Shown: positions 3-52,070 of the stretch, in pieces
Position numbering within the stretch: position 1 is the first letter of the stretch
Layout: each line of letters opens with the position of its first letter
Assembly: GCA_949291125.1 (NCBI GenBank)
Contig: CASEUJ010000029.1
Span: 1-52,070 of the forward strand
DNA length: 52,070 bases
Direction of reading: 5' to 3'
DNA from: an uncultured Ruminococcus sp.
GTDB lineage: Bacteria > Bacillota > Clostridia > Oscillospirales > Ruminococcaceae
Notes under the pieces: model-generated
What the model saw: only the letters and a program-made list of their open reading frames with translations
Databases searched by the model: none
What the model was told of the DNA's origin: nothing
Program-made: the position numbers and the translations under genes

Positions 3-1385
3 ACTACTACTACTACTACTACTATTACAAGTTCTGCTTCCGACAGTAAAACTACAACATCCGCAATTCCTGAAACATCTTCTACTTCTACATCTGTGAC
101 AACAACTGCGGGTCATGCTACAACAACTTCCACGTCTACATCTGTGGCAACGACGAGCACACATGCAGTAACTTCAACATCTATAAATACGACGACAACA
201 AATACAACGACAACATCTACTGCCAACGTCACAACTTCTGACACAACATCAATATTCACTGCATCAACGACTACAAGTAAATCTTCCGTAACCACAACAG
301 ATACAGCTACGACAACTACGACAGTGACAACTGCCGGAGTGACAACACCTTCTACTACAACGAGCATTGGCACAGAAACAGTATTGACTACAGTTTCTGA
401 TTCTTCTACCACAGTGATAACGACACCTACAACTGCAGGTGTTACAACTCCTGTAACAACTACAACGCCAACAACCGCAGCGTCAACCGCTACAGCTGAA
501 AGCCAAGAAACATCTTCTGCAACAAACACAAGCAGTCCAACTATAACAACAGCAATCACAACAACGCTTACAACTGCAGGTGTAACAACACCTCCTGCTA
601 CAACAAGTATTACTGTAACGAGCATTGACACTGAAACAAAATTTTCTGATTCTTCTACCATAATGACAACGACGCTTACGACTACAGGCGTAACAACGCC
701 ATTTGCAACAACAGAAACAACAGTACAAACCACTACAACAGAAGAAACAGATTATACAGCGACAACAGCAACTTTTTCTACTGCTAATACAACAACATCC
801 ATTTCTACCACAGATATCTCCACCACCACAACATCTACATCGTTGACAACACCAGATCATTCCACAACAGAAGTTAGCATGACAACATCTGTGACAGCGT
901 CCACAACAACTGTTACAACAGTATTTACAATTCCCACAACAATCGATGCAACCACGCAAACGACTATGTCAGACACGACAACACAGACAACAACCACAGC
1001 ATTCACATCAACACGACCTACAACTGATGTCACAATCACAACAACACTCGAAATGACAACAACTTCAATTACCACTTCTGTTGTAATTACCGACCCGACA
1101 GCTCCGGTGGTAACTGGAGTTCGAGGTGATGCAAACTTAGACGGCATCGTTAACATTCATGACGCATTTTCGGCTTTGACGTATTACTGCAACCAAATGG
1201 CAGGCAATACTGACTATCAACTTCACGAAGATGCACAGCTGAATGATATCGCCATTTCACAAGTAGATATCAACAGAGATGGAAAAATTGCAATGTTGGA
1301 TGCATTTACGATCTTGATCTATTATTGTAATCACAGTGCAGGCATTGATATGACTTGGGAAGAAGCTTTACAACTATGGCTTTGA
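3..1385 (+). CDS. Thr-rich dockerin protein, 3' part (5' end outside window)
   Basis: The reading frame is open from the first bases of the window (codons start at position 3), so the gene begins upstream and only its C-terminal part is seen. About 340 residues are an extremely Thr/Ser-rich linker, starting with eight ACT codons. It ends in a type I-like dockerin at about 1125-1350, with two calcium-loop/helix repeats: DANLDGIVNIHDAF followed by LTYYCN, and DINRDGKIAMLDAF followed by LIYYCN. Dockerins bind cohesins and attach enzymes or structural proteins to a cellulosome or amylosome scaffold outside the cell. The Thr-rich linker is probably a glycosylated, extended spacer. The catalytic or binding module, if any, lies outside the window. 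Decayed dockerin-like sequence follows the stop codon, and a hairpin terminator lies at 1546-1604. Confidence 0.88.
   Translation, partial: TTTTTTTITSSASDSKTTTSAIPETSSTSTSVTTTAGHATTTSTSTSVATTSTHAVTSTSINTTTTNTTTTSTANVTTSDTTSIFTASTTTSKSSVTTTDTATTTTTVTTAGVTTPSTTTSIGTETVLTTVSDSSTTVITTPTTAGVTTPVTTTTPTTAASTATAESQETSSATNTSSPTITTAITTTLTTAGVTTPPATTSITVTSIDTETKFSDSSTIMTTTLTTTGVTTPFATTETTVQTTTTEETDYTATTATFSTANTTTSISTTDISTTTTSTSLTTPDHSTTEVSMTTSVTASTTTVTTVFTIPTTIDATTQTTMSDTTTQTTTTAFTSTRPTTDVTITTTLEMTTTSITTSVVITDPTAPVVTGVRGDANLDGIVNIHDAFSALTYYCNQMAGNTDYQLHEDAQLNDIAISQVDINRDGKIAMLDAFTILIYYCNHSAGIDMTWEEALQLWL
327..701 (+). repeat. Imperfect TTAGVTTP-type repeats in Thr-rich linker
   Basis: The eight-residue motif TTAGVTTP (once TTTGVTTP) occurs four times, at about 327, 429, 570 and 678, spaced by 34-47 codons. 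It is followed loosely by Thr-rich tracts, Ser-Ile-x-Thr-Glu and SDSST. This is a degenerate internal amplification within the linker. Confidence 0.7.
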
Positions 1386-44392: not shown

Positions 44393-44470
44393 CCATAGCC
44401 GCACAATCGATTTTCACATACAGAAAAGCAGAAAGAACGTGGAATGCATATATTAAATCGAGGTGATTTA

Positions 44471-45004
44471 ATGCATAGAAACATTCGAGATTATGCAGTT
44501 TTACTCATGCGGCCTTACAACGCATTGGCCGTGATAAACGGAAGCCCAGCGTATCCTAACATTCATGGAATTGTACAATTCTATCGCACCAGAAATGGCG
44601 TACTAGTTGCGGCAGAAATACAAGGGCTGCCGCATTCCAGTGAAAGTTGTCAAACATCCATTTTCGGATTCCATATTCATGACGGAATACACTGTGAGGG
44701 CGATATGCATGATCCTTTTTCGAAAGCAATGTCCCATTACAATCCTACCAACTGCATCCATCCGTTCCATGCAGGTGATTTACCGCCACTGTTTGGAAAT
44801 CATGGGTATGCATTTATGGTGGTTCTGACGAATCGCTTCCCCCTGTCAGAGGTGATCGGCAAAACTGTGATCATTCACGGAAATCCCGATGATTTCACTA
44901 CTCAGCCTTCGGGAAATGCAGGTGAAAAAATCGCCTGTGGAGTGATTCAAAGTGAAGAAGAGCCCACTTCTAAACTTCCCAATATCCATCATTTTCGTTT
45001 TTAG
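44471..45004 (+). CDS. Cu/Zn superoxide dismutase family protein
   Basis: Dismutates superoxide to oxygen and hydrogen peroxide. The 177-residue protein starts at the ATG at 44471 after GAGGTG and has no signal peptide. All seven metal ligands are visible: copper H68, H70 (FGFHIHDG), H89 (SHYNP) and H136 (VIIHGN); zinc H89, H97, H100 and D103 (HAGDLPP). The GNAGEKIACGV motif carries Lys153 where eukaryotic enzymes have the active-site Arg143; I recall Lys in other gut Firmicutes homologues, so this may be a subfamily trait. It is convergent with the DUF2935 genes and close to a multicopper oxidase. Confidence 0.88.
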   Translation: MHRNIRDYAVLLMRPYNALAVINGSPAYPNIHGIVQFYRTRNGVLVAAEIQGLPHSSESCQTSIFGFHIHDGIHCEGDMHDPFSKAMSHYNPTNCIHPFHAGDLPPLFGNHGYAFMVVLTNRFPLSEVIGKTVIIHGNPDDFTTQPSGNAGEKIACGVIQSEEEPTSKLPNIHHFRF

Positions 45005-45427: not shown

Positions 45428-45856
45428 TCAATTCTCCAAAATCCTGATAAAATGATTGGCTTCTCGAAGAACATGATCAGCAAGCAAAGGAAGTATCAGT
45501 GAACGAATCTGGCAACTTTCTATCCCCTTTACTCCTTCTGTTTTAAAGTCTCTGAATTTTCTAGTTTCTGTCATAGAATCAACAGCTAATGTTCTGTTTC
45601 GCGCATTATGGCAGCTATTTAACAAAGCAGCATAATCTGCCGCAAACGCATCAGCAGAATTTATCAACTCCGTTTCTGACGGATCCAGCAGCCCTCTTAT
45701 AAAGAGAGCATGTTCCATCATAATTTGATCCCAGAAACATTCACTATTATTCATATATTGAACATATATATTACCATTATTTTCTAATAATTGCACATAT
45801 TTTTGGTACAGCTTTGCTTCTCTCAAAATATGCTCAATCAGCAACGGATAATTCAT
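45428..45856 (-). pseudogene. DUF2935 protein, C-terminal half (split gene)
   Basis: A 142-residue frame starting MNYPLLIEHILREAKLY, with WDQIMMEHALFIRGLLDP and a closing LADHVLREANHFIRIL. This is the second half of DUF2935 proteins, which normally run about 270-300 residues as two four-helix bundles with His/Glu-rich helices that may bind metal. Its ATG overlaps the TGA of the first half (ATGA). The break is a 5-bp tandem duplication, described in the findings. The half might still be made by translational coupling. Confidence 0.8.
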
Positions 45857-46320
45857 TGCATTGTAAACATCTGACAGCCAAGTACTCTATCAAGAATCTC
45901 TTTTTTCAATGCAGTCAAGCCGTTAAGCAGTCTAAGAGCCGTTTGATTCAAAGTTTTAACCTGAACATATCTGTTTACAATGTCATGACAGTTACAACTG
46001 CTCAAATTTAATTCCCTTTTGGTAATATTACTATTGATCGGAATTCCTGTCAATTTTTCAGTCTGTCTTTCTGCATTAAAAGTAAATTCTGTCACAATTT
46101 CACCGGAGTCCAGAACTTTTCTGCTAATTCTTCCATCACTAAGAGCTACTGTATGACTCAGCAGCTTTTCAAATTCATTTTTATAATATTCCGCTTTTTC
46201 AGAAAAACTTACATTAACTGGAGTAAATCCTGCTTTTAGAAATAACGAATGCTCTTTCATGATACGCCCAAAAAACAGGTGAAGCTCCAGAGATTTCGAA
46301 ATATAATTTTCAGTATTCAT
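45853..46320 (-). pseudogene. DUF2935 protein, N-terminal half (split gene)
   Basis: A 155-residue frame from the ATG at 46320 behind GGAGG. It contains SLELHLFFGRIMKEHSLFLK, GEIVTEFTFNAERQTEKLTG and a final RVLGCQMFTMQ. In intact family members the last part continues directly as FTxNYPLLIDHIL. Here a frameshift stops the frame after MFTMQ and the rest lies in the next frame. It is 83 bases downstream of the multicopper oxidase gene with no obvious promoter, so the two are probably one transcript. Confidence 0.82.
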
Positions 46321-46403
46321 ATATTCCTCCACATATCATAATCACCAACATAATATTAAAAAAAGATTACCTAACTTGAGCCGAAAATCCCTCTGTGTTT
46401 CCA

Positions 46404-49400
46404 TTACTCATACTTATCATACCATTTCTTTTCCCACCAATTTCCGAATATTCGGCATGCACATTCGCAGCAATACTTGATACCTTTTTTCATAACCCTG
46501 AATATCCCCCACATTCCCGATTCTACATCCCATCTCAAAGAACCGGAACGATAAAGATAATCACCAGGATACTCAGACGCCCCGTTTTCCAGCTCAATAT
46601 TATAAACACCACCGATGCTTACTGCACCTTGTATAGAATTTCTTCTTGAAAACGGATCATCAGGCTGTGAAAGCCAGTTATGCCCATGCACTGCAAAGCT
46701 GATATTTCTCGGTTTATCTGCCGGCATAAGATAACGGATTATGACACGCTCTCCTGCATACGCTTCAAATAGAGGTGTTGCCGGGTCTCCGTGTACTTTT
46801 GAACTGAAAATCTTACTAATCATTGAATTGCGTTTGAGTCGGTTGAAAAAGCGTTCAGAACGATAATTGAAACCCTTCTCTCCTGTATCTTCATGATCGA
46901 CACCTCCGTGTCCAGTATCCTCTCCTTGCTTAGATGTTTTAATCAAATTTCCGTCCTTATCAATCATGCGAATACCATTATGTGCAAACAGTACAAATTC
47001 TCGGAACGATTTCACTCCAGGAGCAGTAATGACTGCCTGTTCATTGAAATTTTCCTTTTGGAAGGAAAAGTTACTATAATACTGTGCAGCAGGTGGCTCA
47101 ATGATAATTGCTCCAAACAAACCATGGTATCTATGATTACGCAAATCTCCAAATGAGCTAAGCATGCAGGTTCCGTATTCCTTGTCAGCATGCCATAAAT
47201 ATCTAATGCATTCACCTGGTGCTGCAGTCTGTTCTGGTTTATTAAAACCTACATTGACTCCTGCGGAACATGCAGCATGCTTTAAAAACTGCGGACTAAG
47301 AGAAACTCTATTTGATGGTTCGTGACACATATCAAGTGGAACAGAGGGATAATCATGATACAATACCGGTTTGTTAAACAAATTATACAGCGTAATTTCG
47401 ATCCAATCCCCGGCATTTGCACGCAAGATTAAAGGTATCGGCTTTTTCTTACCACACTTGACATCTTCTACATATTCTAAAGGAACGAAGAGCATTCCCT
47501 CAGGGTCATGATCACCGTAGCGGTTATATGCAATATCCGTTTGAATGGCCGCAATTTTAAATTTGCGTATTGTTGCTCCTTCTGGTGGACAAATCGGAAA
47601 TGGCAGAGGTTTGTTCTGATTACAAAGCGGAAGAAGATGCTTCTGATGGCTGCCATAAGCTCGTATGATTCCCCACAGACCGAGCCATACATCGTCTATA
47701 CCGCCAAAATAATACAAATAGTCTCCTTCTCCATAATATTCGTCAATTCGAATATTAAAAGCTTCTGATATACCAATCGTCTGCTCTGCAACTAAGGGAG
47801 AAACAGGATCAGTAATTTCCTTTCGCCATTCCATTCCGTTTATATTAAAAGCATGCTGTTCTTCATGTGCACCATCAAGCAAACGAATTACCATCGGGTC
47901 TCCTGGGTAAGTTTCCAAAATCGGCGTTGCAGGGTCTCCATATTTACGAGAACTAAATATATGCGACGGATCATTTTTCTTTTTCAGACGTTCTCTCATA
48001 GGTTCGCATCGGTAACTGATACCCATAACACCGGGGTCATCATCAGAACCCGGATGCTCCGGCGGATTGAGTGGTTCTCCATCTTTATCAAACAAAAGCG
48101 CAAAGTCATGGACGAATATCGCAAACTCACGATAGGATTCTCCATTTGCTTTTCGAATAACAGCATTTGCCCCGCTTTTCATTGGCCTGCCATTTTTAGG
48201 ATTCAGAAAAACTGAACCTGCTGGTTCAATCAACAACGCGCCAAACATGCCGTGCTGCTGATGAGAATTAGCAAAAAGGTGGTCATGAAAAAATACCGTA
48301 TTCAGCTCTTCATTGGCAAAAAATCGCTCTATCAGTGTTTCATATTTTCTTGCACCGGCAATATTACTCCAGCCATTAGCAGCACCGTCCGATACGATAG
48401 TATCAAACTTCACAAGATGAATATGAAAACCAATCATATCAGTTAATGTTTTCAACTGAAAAGGACTTTCCTCTATAAATTCCGGCAGTAAATTTGTTAG
48501 TCTTATTTCAATACAATCACCTGCGTTTGCACGGATGACCAGCGGTTCTGGTCTAATTTTACCACTGTTGACTTTATCAAGATATTTATCGAGCGTTCCA
48601 TACCGTTGTACATCTTCTTTCAGAACAAAAAATCTGCCCTGTGGATCGTGCCAGCCATAGCGATTATAAACAATTTTCGCCTGCACAATAGCAATCTCAA
48701 ACACTTTAAGATTTTTTGGACATTTACATGGACAAGTCTGGGAATACAATGATCCCGGCACAAAATTCCGCACAAAATTTGATGCTTCCAACGAAGTTGG
48801 AAAAATTTTGTTATTACAATTTTTATCTAGAATCCCCAATGGTGGCTGAAGAGGTCTCTCTCCAAATTTTCCATTAATGAAATTCGGATAGCCGGGATGA
48901 TGCGAATTCTTTTTCGGCGGACATGGTCTATCTTTCAGCGGCATAAGCTGCTCTATAGGCGTGTAATCTGGATATATTCCTGTTCCATCCTCCAATCTGT
49001 CAAAAATTCTCCAGAGCGTCCACATTCCCTCATGAAAATGTGGATACAGATGGCAATGAAAAATAGCGTCGCCAATTGTTTTAGTCAAACTACCTGCACC
49101 ATATAGAATATCAAGTGTATAACACTCCTGAGGACTGATGGAAATAGAATCAATAATTGTAGACTTCGGATCAGCGGAATCAAGTCTCCATTGATGATTG
49201 TGAAGATGAAAAACATGGGTTTCTTTTATGCCGCCATGAATTAGCCTTATTTTAGCTGGATCACCAACATAAGCTCTCAGAATCGGCGGTGCAGGGTCAC
49301 CATATGCCCATGAGCTCATTGAAATATCCTCGTCTGTTACAACATGATGCATTTCATTCAGAGGCAGCCTGTTACGCATCGGTTCGGAACGATAGCTGAT

Positions 49401-50084
49401 GCCTGTTGTTCCGTTTGGAAGGCCTGTATGCGGATCCACGGGCTGGTCACCGTCCTTATTTTTTATTTCCAGTTCATCATGAAAGAAAACTGCGTATTCA
49501 CGAAAAGCAGGATTGGTCGGATGATAGATATCTGCAAATAATCCGCTTTCAATTTCCTCGCCAGTTATAGGATCAAACCACTTTGACTGCGGCTTTTCAA
49601 CAATTATCGCACCGAAAAGTCCGTGTACGTTCGTACCATCCTCGCTCCCTCGTGCATCACCCAGATCTGAGAACAGGTAAATACCCTCTTTTTCCGCATA
49701 CCACACATACTGTATAAAGTTTTCTGTAGTGGTATCTGGATTATTTCCTACATTTGCTCCGTCTGAAGTCAAAACGTCATATCGCAGTCCCTGCACATGC
49801 ATAGATACATTTCTTTTCAATTTGTTATAGAAGTTTATCCGAATTTCATCGCCTACATTCGCCCTTATAACAAGCGGCTGTACCTCCTTATAAGGCTGCG
49901 GAGGACTCATCGCAAAATTTTCCCTTGCTTTCTGCTGAATTCTTCCAGAATCTTTTTTCAGCACATAAAGCATTCCATTTGGGTCATTGTCACCGTATTT
50001 ATTATAAACGATGGGAAGAGATATTGCTTCTATATCAAAAGTTCTGACAAAAGTACTACTCGGATAATCTGATAAATTTGTCAT
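46404..50084 (-). CDS. MnxG-like six-cupredoxin multicopper oxidase
   Basis: A 1226-residue multicopper oxidase, the size of the Bacillus manganese oxidase MnxG (about 1200 residues, six cupredoxin domains). Three tandem segments each start with IVYNRYG/IAYNRYG-type sequence and repeat VIRANAGD and HGLFGAIIVE. All four copper motifs are seen: HVFHLH (about 291-296), HCHLYPHFHEGM with the type 1 ligands (344-355), FHIH (554-557) and FHDH (600-603). The order is C, D, A, B rather than the laccase order. No signal peptide or membrane helix is present; Cys clusters occur at CPCKCP and at the C-terminus. MnxG relatives oxidise Mn(II) on the spore surface. The ATG at 50084 is chosen; a GTG lies one codon upstream. 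Confidence 0.9.
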   Translation of the reverse strand: MTNLSDYPSSTFVRTFDIEAISLPIVYNKYGDNDPNGMLYVLKKDSGRIQQKARENFAMSPPQPYKEVQPLVIRANVGDEIRINFYNKLKRNVSMHVQGLRYDVLTSDGANVGNNPDTTTENFIQYVWYAEKEGIYLFSDLGDARGSEDGTNVHGLFGAIIVEKPQSKWFDPITGEEIESGLFADIYHPTNPAFREYAVFFHDELEIKNKDGDQPVDPHTGLPNGTTGISYRSEPMRNRLPLNEMHHVVTDEDISMSSWAYGDPAPPILRAYVGDPAKIRLIHGGIKETHVFHLHNHQWRLDSADPKSTIIDSISISPQECYTLDILYGAGSLTKTIGDAIFHCHLYPHFHEGMWTLWRIFDRLEDGTGIYPDYTPIEQLMPLKDRPCPPKKNSHHPGYPNFINGKFGERPLQPPLGILDKNCNNKIFPTSLEASNFVRNFVPGSLYSQTCPCKCPKNLKVFEIAIVQAKIVYNRYGWHDPQGRFFVLKEDVQRYGTLDKYLDKVNSGKIRPEPLVIRANAGDCIEIRLTNLLPEFIEESPFQLKTLTDMIGFHIHLVKFDTIVSDGAANGWSNIAGARKYETLIERFFANEELNTVFFHDHLFANSHQQHGMFGALLIEPAGSVFLNPKNGRPMKSGANAVIRKANGESYREFAIFVHDFALLFDKDGEPLNPPEHPGSDDDPGVMGISYRCEPMRERLKKKNDPSHIFSSRKYGDPATPILETYPGDPMVIRLLDGAHEEQHAFNINGMEWRKEITDPVSPLVAEQTIGISEAFNIRIDEYYGEGDYLYYFGGIDDVWLGLWGIIRAYGSHQKHLLPLCNQNKPLPFPICPPEGATIRKFKIAAIQTDIAYNRYGDHDPEGMLFVPLEYVEDVKCGKKKPIPLILRANAGDWIEITLYNLFNKPVLYHDYPSVPLDMCHEPSNRVSLSPQFLKHAACSAGVNVGFNKPEQTAAPGECIRYLWHADKEYGTCMLSSFGDLRNHRYHGLFGAIIIEPPAAQYYSNFSFQKENFNEQAVITAPGVKSFREFVLFAHNGIRMIDKDGNLIKTSKQGEDTGHGGVDHEDTGEKGFNYRSERFFNRLKRNSMISKIFSSKVHGDPATPLFEAYAGERVIIRYLMPADKPRNISFAVHGHNWLSQPDDPFSRRNSIQGAVSIGGVYNIELENGASEYPGDYLYRSGSLRWDVESGMWGIFRVMKKGIKYCCECACRIFGNWWEKKWYDKYE

Positions 50085-50133
50085 CACCCAAAGCGCCCTT
50101 TCAATTAAATTTGAAATATATAATATCTCAATC

Positions 50134-50161
50134 TAATATATGCTGAAGTTATTCAATCGGT
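50134..50161 (-). promoter_or_regulatory. Sigma-K-like promoter of the multicopper oxidase gene
   Basis: On the minus strand AC (50161-50160), 17 bases and CATATATTA (50142-50134) fit the sigma-K pattern AC-N16/17-CATAnnnTA. The leader would be about 40 bases. sigK itself is the next gene on the other side. The motif is short and could occur by chance in this AT-rich gap. Confidence 0.5.
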
Positions 50162-50992: not shown

Positions 50993-51667
50993 ATGTTCTT
51001 ACAATTTTTTCAGCAGATTCTCTTTTTTTTTCTACATGTGGGCGAAGCCGGATCGTTTCGAAAGCCACTCGGAAAGCAAGAAGAAGCCGCCTGTTTTAAT
51101 GCAATGGCACGAGGTGATACCAAAGCACGGGAAAAGCTGATTTTACACAATATGCGCCTTGTGGCACATCTGACCAAAAAATATGCCGCTTCACCGGCAG
51201 AACAAGAAGAGCTGATCTCTATCGGCACCATCGGTCTTGTAAAGGCAGTTGATTCCTTTGATAATAGCAAAGGCGCTAGGTTTGCGACTTATGCGTCAAG
51301 ATGTATTGAAAATGAAATACTCATGAACTTTCGTGCCCAGAAAAAACACGCTGATCAGATCTATATGGGGGAACCGATCGAAACAGACGGCGACGGCAAT
51401 CAACTAACACTAATGGATATTATTGATGATGGTACCGATCTGCCAGAACAGGTAGATATGCAAATCCAATCTAAGCAGCTCTATGAGTATCTACAATCTG
51501 TTTTAGAACCACGGGAAACAGAGATCCTTGTCTATCGTTATGGATTATACGGATCGTCCCCGCTGACACAAAAAGAAGTATCGAAAAAATTAGGGATCTC
51601 AAGATCGTATGTATCACGACTGGAAAAACATGCAATTGAAAAACTCCGCAGTAAATATGGCGCATGA
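50993..51667 (+). CDS. sigK: Sporulation sigma factor SigK
   Basis: Late mother-cell sigma factor that directs coat and spore-release genes. The 224-residue protein starts at the ATG at 50993 behind GAGGTG. A hydrophobic pro-sequence-like N-terminus (FLQFFQQILFFFLHVG) is followed by region 2 (ARGDTKAREKLILHNMRLVAH, EELISIGTIGLVKAVDSFD, FATYASRCIENEIL), then region 4 (TEILVYRYGLYG, LTQKEVSKKLGISRSYVSRLEK). The gene is continuous, not split by a skin-type element. The hydrophobic start suggests an inactive precursor that must be cleaved, as in Bacillus. Confidence 0.93.
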   Translation: MFLQFFQQILFFFLHVGEAGSFRKPLGKQEEAACFNAMARGDTKAREKLILHNMRLVAHLTKKYAASPAEQEELISIGTIGLVKAVDSFDNSKGARFATYASRCIENEILMNFRAQKKHADQIYMGEPIETDGDGNQLTLMDIIDDGTDLPEQVDMQIQSKQLYEYLQSVLEPRETEILVYRYGLYGSSPLTQKEVSKKLGISRSYVSRLEKHAIEKLRSKYGA

Positions 51668-51822: not shown

Positions 51823-52070
51823 ATGTCAGAGAATCGAGAATATGAAAAATAATACAAAGTGCAAGCGGTAAAGCTTGCGAAACAGATCGGATCGACAAAA
51901 GCTGCCGAGGAATTGCAAATACCGGTCAATACGCTGTACGGATGGATGAGAAAAGCAAAATTTGGAGAATTGGATATCGGATGCGGAGAACGCAGTACGG
52001 AGGAATCTTTGAATATTGCGGAAGAAAATCAGCAGTTGCGAAAACGAATCAAGGCATTGGAAAAAGAAAA
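51823..52070 (+). pseudogene. IS3-family transposase OrfA with early stop
   Basis: The ATG at 51823 follows GGAGGG. Codons read MSENREYEK, then TAA (51850-51852), then continue in the same frame as YKVQAVKLAKQIGSTKAAE, LQIPVNTLYGWMRKAK and a coiled coil (AEENQQLRKRIKALEKE). The helix-turn-helix and leucine-zipper pattern is that of IS3 OrfA. A Gln codon at position 10, one base from TAA, would restore it. The copy is probably inactive unless the stop is read through. It is truncated by the window end. Confidence 0.8.

Follow-up and report, generated by a model that had tools for sequence, protein, structure and literature searches.

Multicopper oxidases take in electrons at a type 1 (T1) copper and reduce O2 to water at a trinuclear copper centre, and a gene for such an enzyme in a presumed anaerobe raises the question of when, where and with which partner it would act. 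We address this question for a locus of an uncultured Ruminococcus sp. (assembly GCA_949291125.1, contig CASEUJ010000029.1) lying in a stretch of 52,070 nucleotides, hereafter the window, where an initial annotation had described a MnxG-type manganese-oxidase-like enzyme with a sigma-K-like promoter beside sigK and had suggested a spore-coat oxidase. The copper sites of this oxidase are intact, its family is associated with DUF2935 proteins and with a conserved promoter, and no MnxE/F-like match was found in 12 genomes of its gut clade. Judging from these sequence comparisons, we consider it probable that the enzyme is a sigma-K-expressed metal oxidase of the spore surface that uses O2 when spores meet air, with DUF2935 replacing MnxE/F. 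The initial annotation covered 46404-50161, which takes in the upstream promoter site, and did not mention the DUF2935 partner.

The oxidase and its relatives

The oxidase gene (46404 to 50084, minus strand) encodes a MnxG-like protein of 1226 residues and of the six-domain type, as indicated by the open reading frame (ORF) call, Pfam, alignment and a match in the PDB. The ORF spans 46404-50087 with an ATG at 50084, and a probable ribosome-binding site, GAAAGGG, can be read 11 bases before this codon (50096 to 50102, minus strand). All 12 ligands of the T1 site and trinuclear centre (ten histidines, one cysteine and the axial methionine) are present in four motifs that follow the order C-D-A-B, as had been described at the outset for a protein of this length: H290, H293 and H295 in motif C, H343, C344, H345, H349 and M354 in motif D, H554 and H556 in motif A, and H600 and H602 in motif B. 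They are invariant across an alignment of 12 sequences and form a complete set in 83 of the 85 family members whose ORF reaches 900 residues or more (the exceptions being L095 and L121), which leaves that description standing on alignment as well.

Pfam recognizes only Cu-oxidase_3 and Cu-oxidase_2 (PF07732, 71.2 bits against a cut-off of 21; PF07731, 39.3 bits against 20.4), placing the protein in the multicopper oxidase superfamily, and MnxG itself (PDB 9bxa) aligns with residues 13-1201 at 1133 bits, the second-best match reaching 44 bits. The NCBIfam model for MnxG (NF041487) scores 340 bits (E 1.9e-101), below its cut-off of 3100; since a Bacillaceae-type MnxG-like relative that scores 1623 bits against 9bxa falls short too, at only 319.5 bits, this cut-off is not discriminating here. 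No signal sequence was evident by eye at the N terminus. By its sequence, the window protein is an intact multicopper oxidase of the MnxG superfamily.

The window's own genome holds one copy. Matches to the oxidase occurred in 6 of 297 genomes sampled from the family, 2 of 391 from the class and 12 of 398 from the phylum, each count including the window's own genome; three of the family members (G092, G254 and G289) hold only remnants or broken genes. A contig scan returned at least 570 relatives, and the best 80 of these, a set biased to close kin by that choice, come largely from gut Ruminococcus and Lachnospiraceae, with a few Clostridium and Peptostreptococcaceae. The oxidases of four Ruminococcus metagenome-assembled genomes (L042-L045) are 86-91% identical to that of the window (91% for L042), and that of Clostridium methylpentosum (L092), within the gut clade, is 76% identical. 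In a tree of 82 sequences of at least 1000 residues, built by a quick method and with long branches flagged, 74 gut-clade sequences form one group and four MnxEF-like sequences another, each with 100% support in the Shimodaira-Hasegawa-like approximate likelihood ratio test (SH-aLRT). On this tree the window oxidase lies outside the MnxE/F-bearing MnxG-like group and sits in a separate clade associated with DUF2935.

Among 72,556 plasmid records examined for signs of mobile spread, 18 contain a relative of the oxidase, all at less than 60% identity, and no gut clostridium is among the ten plasmid matches listed. One contig titled Methanosarcina sp. Ant1 (L100) bears a gut-clade oxidase, 71% identical over the best segment, and is perhaps a contaminant.

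MnxE/F-like genes and the DUF2935 protein

In marine Bacillus, the minimum for activity is mnxE, mnxF and mnxG together, and the E3F3 hexamer weighs 70.7 kDa (both from the part of PMC5622069 that was available). Among the relatives collected here, two small proteins (81-123 residues) precede the oxidase in L033, L037 and L038, one fused protein of 234 residues does so in L035, and two Priestia megaterium plasmid operons carry the same small-protein pair, which we call MnxE/MnxF-like because its place and size fit. Profiles of these proteins match 5 of 23 genomes, three of which had supplied the profiles and two of which (G949 and G1021) are independent finds. They match none of the 12 gut-clade genomes searched, the window's own included, and none of six others. 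With MnxE/F part of the minimum in Bacillus, and with the clade of the window oxidase separate and accompanied by DUF2935, manganese as the substrate is not simply transferable, so that the manganese analogy drawn initially is weakened.

Behind the oxidase, 72 bp away on the same strand, begins an ORF for the N-terminal part of a DUF2935 protein (45853 to 46332, minus strand; PF11155, 79.9 bits against a cut-off of 24.4), and the C-terminal part follows in another frame that overlaps it (45428 to 45856, minus strand; 122.1 bits against 24.4). The frame is split at about 45854-45863 by a short frame-shifting repeat that is absent from L042 and L043, where DUF2935 is a single ORF. The window copy may be broken, restarted or mis-assembled, and the partner possibly impaired.

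Clustering of the ORFs that flank the oxidase across loci gave one dominant neighbour, DUF2935, which lies within 600 bp of the oxidase in 54 of 89 loci; among the 66 loci whose flanks both reach at least 1200 bp, 41 have it there. Its commonest position, largely in Lachnospiraceae, is upstream on the same strand; it also occurs downstream on the same strand (the window, L042 and L043), upstream and divergent (L046, L047 and L092) and downstream and convergent (L106). Where no adjacent copy is visible, a DUF2935 of the same subfamily (E at most 1e-100) is found elsewhere in the genome in 17 of 19 gut-clade carriers, as compared with 2 of 26 genomes from the window's family that have no oxidase (G010 and G038) and none of 11 in which the MnxG-like genes or fragments are of another kind (Fisher 2e-8 and 1e-6, respectively). 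Three of these 11 (G714, G769 and G938) give distant DUF2935 matches. The 26 were taken from the top of the family sample as listed and are not a random draw. The 19 carriers are a chosen subset that leaves out L056 (DUF2935 1.6 kb away), L089, L090, L095, L100, L116, L118 and L120; adjacency could be hidden in L045, L048 and L050, where the contig ends less than 700 bp upstream of the oxidase, and the oxidase ORFs are split in L069, L110 and L119.

An AlphaFold2 model of the intact C. methylpentosum DUF2935 protein (mean predicted local distance difference test score, pLDDT, 90.8) matches two Bacillus cereus metalloproteins, 3d19 (template modelling score 0.73-0.75 by query length; about 26-27% identity) and 3dby (17-18% identity), whereas Dps and bacterioferritin appeared in the structure search only below significance. 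To our knowledge, both structures were solved without a stated function, and we know of no link between them and an oxidase. Each half of DUF2935 has an EH and an HxxRE motif, and these are invariant in 52 of 52 sequences. Sequence and model together point to a two-domain helical metalloprotein, which shares its fold with 3d19 and 3dby at low identity and appears to be the associated partner of the gut-clade oxidase; it is the only consistent candidate that we found for the MnxE/F role in this clade.

Promoters of the oxidase and DUF2935 genes

Upstream of the oxidase lies a sigma-K-type promoter sequence, AC-N17-CATATATTA (50134 to 50161, minus strand), with its -10 box at 50134-50142 and its -35 AC at 50160-50161. 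The -35 element AC is the sigma-K form and ATA the sigma-E form in C. difficile, according to the part of PMC3789822 that was available. The site pointed out at 50161-50134 by the initial annotation is thus present, and taken alone it is no commoner than chance: both strands of the whole window together hold 10 AC...CATA-type sites where a Markov model gives 8.0 on average, and for the 4 of these that have the strict TA end the Markov mean is 3.3. We therefore rejected the window motif by itself as evidence, and it is its place and its conservation in relatives that carry weight.

Across the family, AC-N15..17-CATANNNTR occurs no more than 150 bp from the start in 41 of 80 oxidase-family transcription units as opposed to 5 of 262 other genes from the same loci, and to a Markov expectation of 1.0 on average and 5 at most over 200 rounds. 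These counts cover 80 of the 89 loci (L057, L058, L074, L076, L084, L090, L095, L116 and L118 were not scored). The gut clade contributes 40 of 72 units with the strict motif. The element CATANNNT is found in all 42 operons that begin with DUF2935, in 66 of the 80 units overall and in 49 of the 262 controls. Spacing is narrow as well, since 20 of the 44 sites in 41 DUF2935-first operons stand at exactly -43 from the start codon and 37 between -46 and -39. Anchored base counts draw on 41 of 42 and 22 of 38 units, the anchor for L045 having fallen on a downstream site. The two Priestia operons carry AC-N16-CATAAAAT(A/G) before the mnxE-like gene.

DUF2935 genes that are physically unlinked to the oxidase have a promoter of the AC-CATA type in 11 of the 19 cases scored (from a set of 20) and in 8 of 15 within gut-clade carriers, so that descent of one operon promoter is not a ready explanation. 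The set includes two genes from oxidase-negative genomes (L132 and L141) and two from genomes in which the oxidase is only broken or a remnant (L123 and L126). As a positive control for the motif, dpaA proved weak: the best match in the window genome has AC-N17-CATACAATA 132 bp before its ATG, scores 173.9 bits, below the cut-off of 319.65, and comes from a search that matches in all 14 control genomes. Assignment of a sigma-K-type promoter to the oxidase and DUF2935 units is supported by comparison across the family, in agreement with the initial proposal, which had drawn on one motif.

The gene sigK itself (50993 to 51667, plus strand; NF004471, 270.7 bits against a cut-off of 252) is divergent from the oxidase, as had been reported, at 908 bp from the oxidase start, and falls outside the conserved unit. 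The linkage is incidental, being seen in 1 of 89 loci, and we rejected it as evidence; L044 and L119, each 87% identical over the best segment and with 8 kb upstream, are without sigK. The sporulation idea is strengthened by the conserved promoter, at the level of sequence, instead of by this neighbourhood. Beside sigK, the start of an apparent IS3-type transposase helix-turn-helix frame (51823-52070, plus strand) is cut by the window end. On the other side, a Cu/Zn superoxide dismutase-like gene adjoins the DUF2935 pieces in this presumed anaerobe (44444-45004, plus strand, likely start 44471; Sod_Cu, 85.9 bits); as only 1 of 89 loci shows it linked with the oxidase, it was rejected as part of the module, and the exact CATATATTA directly before its likely ATG (44471) lies very near the start and has no suitably spaced AC. 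Far from these genes, a threonine-rich protein ending in a dockerin-like repeat (96-1385, plus strand) is the likely basis of an earlier remark that the organism bears cellulosomes.

A proposed spore-surface oxidase and its alternatives

In the mechanism that we propose, the oxidase would be made in the mother cell, late in sporulation and under sigma-K, and would be deposited on the spore surface, to wait there without need of metabolism. MnxG has this location in marine Bacillus, going by the title of exosporium work cited in PMC5622069. On contact with air, a metal ion (Mn(II) or Fe(II) being the likeliest) would give up electrons to the T1 copper, and the trinuclear centre would reduce O2, as a four-electron acceptor, to water. 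DUF2935, possibly in contact with the oxidase, would supply, bind or store the metal in the position of MnxE/MnxF, and the spores of gut anaerobes would as a result remove O2 locally, gain a layer of metal oxide or of cross-linked material, or both. More tentatively, and with somewhat less than even confidence, we extend this to a two-component spore system of MnxG-clade oxidase and DUF2935 spread in gut Clostridia (Ruminococcus, many Lachnospiraceae and some Clostridium). In it, a helical protein that binds metal would replace MnxE/F and would let the spores of strict anaerobes consume O2 and oxidize surface metal in air.

A number of observations weigh against a sigma-K-expressed spore-surface metal oxidase with a DUF2935 partner. 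Oxidase genes are often broken, 13 of 89 loci having two or more oxidase ORFs (L109, L118, L119, L027 and others), although some of the splits are perhaps assembly errors; the DUF2935 frame is itself split in the window genome; and 2 of the 19 carriers searched have no DUF2935 (G1072, and G619, the genome of L096, which is 71% complete). The strict motif is absent from 39 of the 80 units and present in only 1 of 8 outside the gut clade, promoters inside one operon share descent, and the unlinked DUF2935 genes of the close Ruminococcus relatives L127 and L129 are without it. The oxidase-negative genomes G010 and G038 also have a DUF2935 gene with the motif, and the promoter may therefore belong to DUF2935 as such. 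Co-occurrence with sporulation was rejected as proof: SpoIVA is present in 57 of 60 oxidase carriers (18 searched genomes, among them some that hold just fragments of the oxidase, plus 42 of the 80 contig-scan loci; G187, G619 and G800 lack it), which says little at a base rate of 249 of 297 in the window's family.

Promoter and partner evidence would also fit a CotA-like enzyme that oxidizes phenols or protein groups on the spore surface to cross-link or pigment the coat, with DUF2935 handling only copper, for the metal bound by DUF2935 is not fixed by that evidence. We find this unlikely in view of the whole-length kinship to MnxG, a metal oxidase, at 1133 bits, against 44 for the best three-domain laccase. 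CotA-type spore-coat laccases resemble the window oxidase in their spore setting and multicopper oxidase chemistry, and are unlike it in their three-domain architecture and other substrates. A vegetative or general enzyme of copper or oxygen defence, beside which the CATA-type site in the window genome would be a coincidence, accords with the chance-level frequency of the motif in the window and with the 39 units that lack its strict form; we think it improbable, since the enrichment (41 of 80 against 5 of 262), the constant spacing found where DUF2935 leads the operon (37 of 44 sites, 41 operons) and the promoter type shared by unlinked DUF2935 genes all speak against it.

No more credence, we think, is due to the idea that the window strain keeps a decaying relic, in which the oxidase survives and the pair no longer works because DUF2935 is split. 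The remnants and broken genes in G092, G254 and G289, the 13 loci with more than one oxidase ORF and the split DUF2935 of the window are what such decay would leave; against it stand the full length and complete ligand set of the window oxidase and the intact DUF2935 at the same place in L042 (91% identical), and a restart or an assembly error could account for the split. The spore-surface metal oxidase remains our preferred reading.

Among known systems, the Mnx complex of marine Bacillus (PDB 9bxa; PMC5622069, seen in part) is alike in its whole-length match, its C-D-A-B copper layout and its sporulation-linked setting, and differs from the system described here in that the window oxidase belongs to a separate clade with a DUF2935 partner and no MnxE/F-like genes in the 12 gut-clade genomes searched, and has strict anaerobes as hosts. 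A study of 2013 (PMC3600357) already noted MnxG homologues in C. methylpentosum and C. perfringens, and these Clostridium proteins are of the same kind, C. methylpentosum falling within the gut clade. That study treats phylogeny and copper sites, and neither the DUF2935 partner nor the promoter was met in the part of it that was available. The new element is the DUF2935 partner, MnxG homologues in Clostridium being already in print; we found no description of the partner swap or of the promoter conservation in the open-access literature searched.

The survival of strict gut anaerobes in air is usually ascribed to the passive resistance of their spores. If the proposed reading is true, gut spore formers have an oxidase that uses O2, is controlled by sigma-K and has a partner of its own, and active oxygen handling by spores becomes directly testable. 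DUF2935, a family without a function, gains a concrete partner and a hypothesis, and the association suggests that a protein unrelated to MnxE/F can stand in for these two where MnxG needs them. On this reading, the spores of anaerobes may be armed with a metal oxidase that consumes oxygen.

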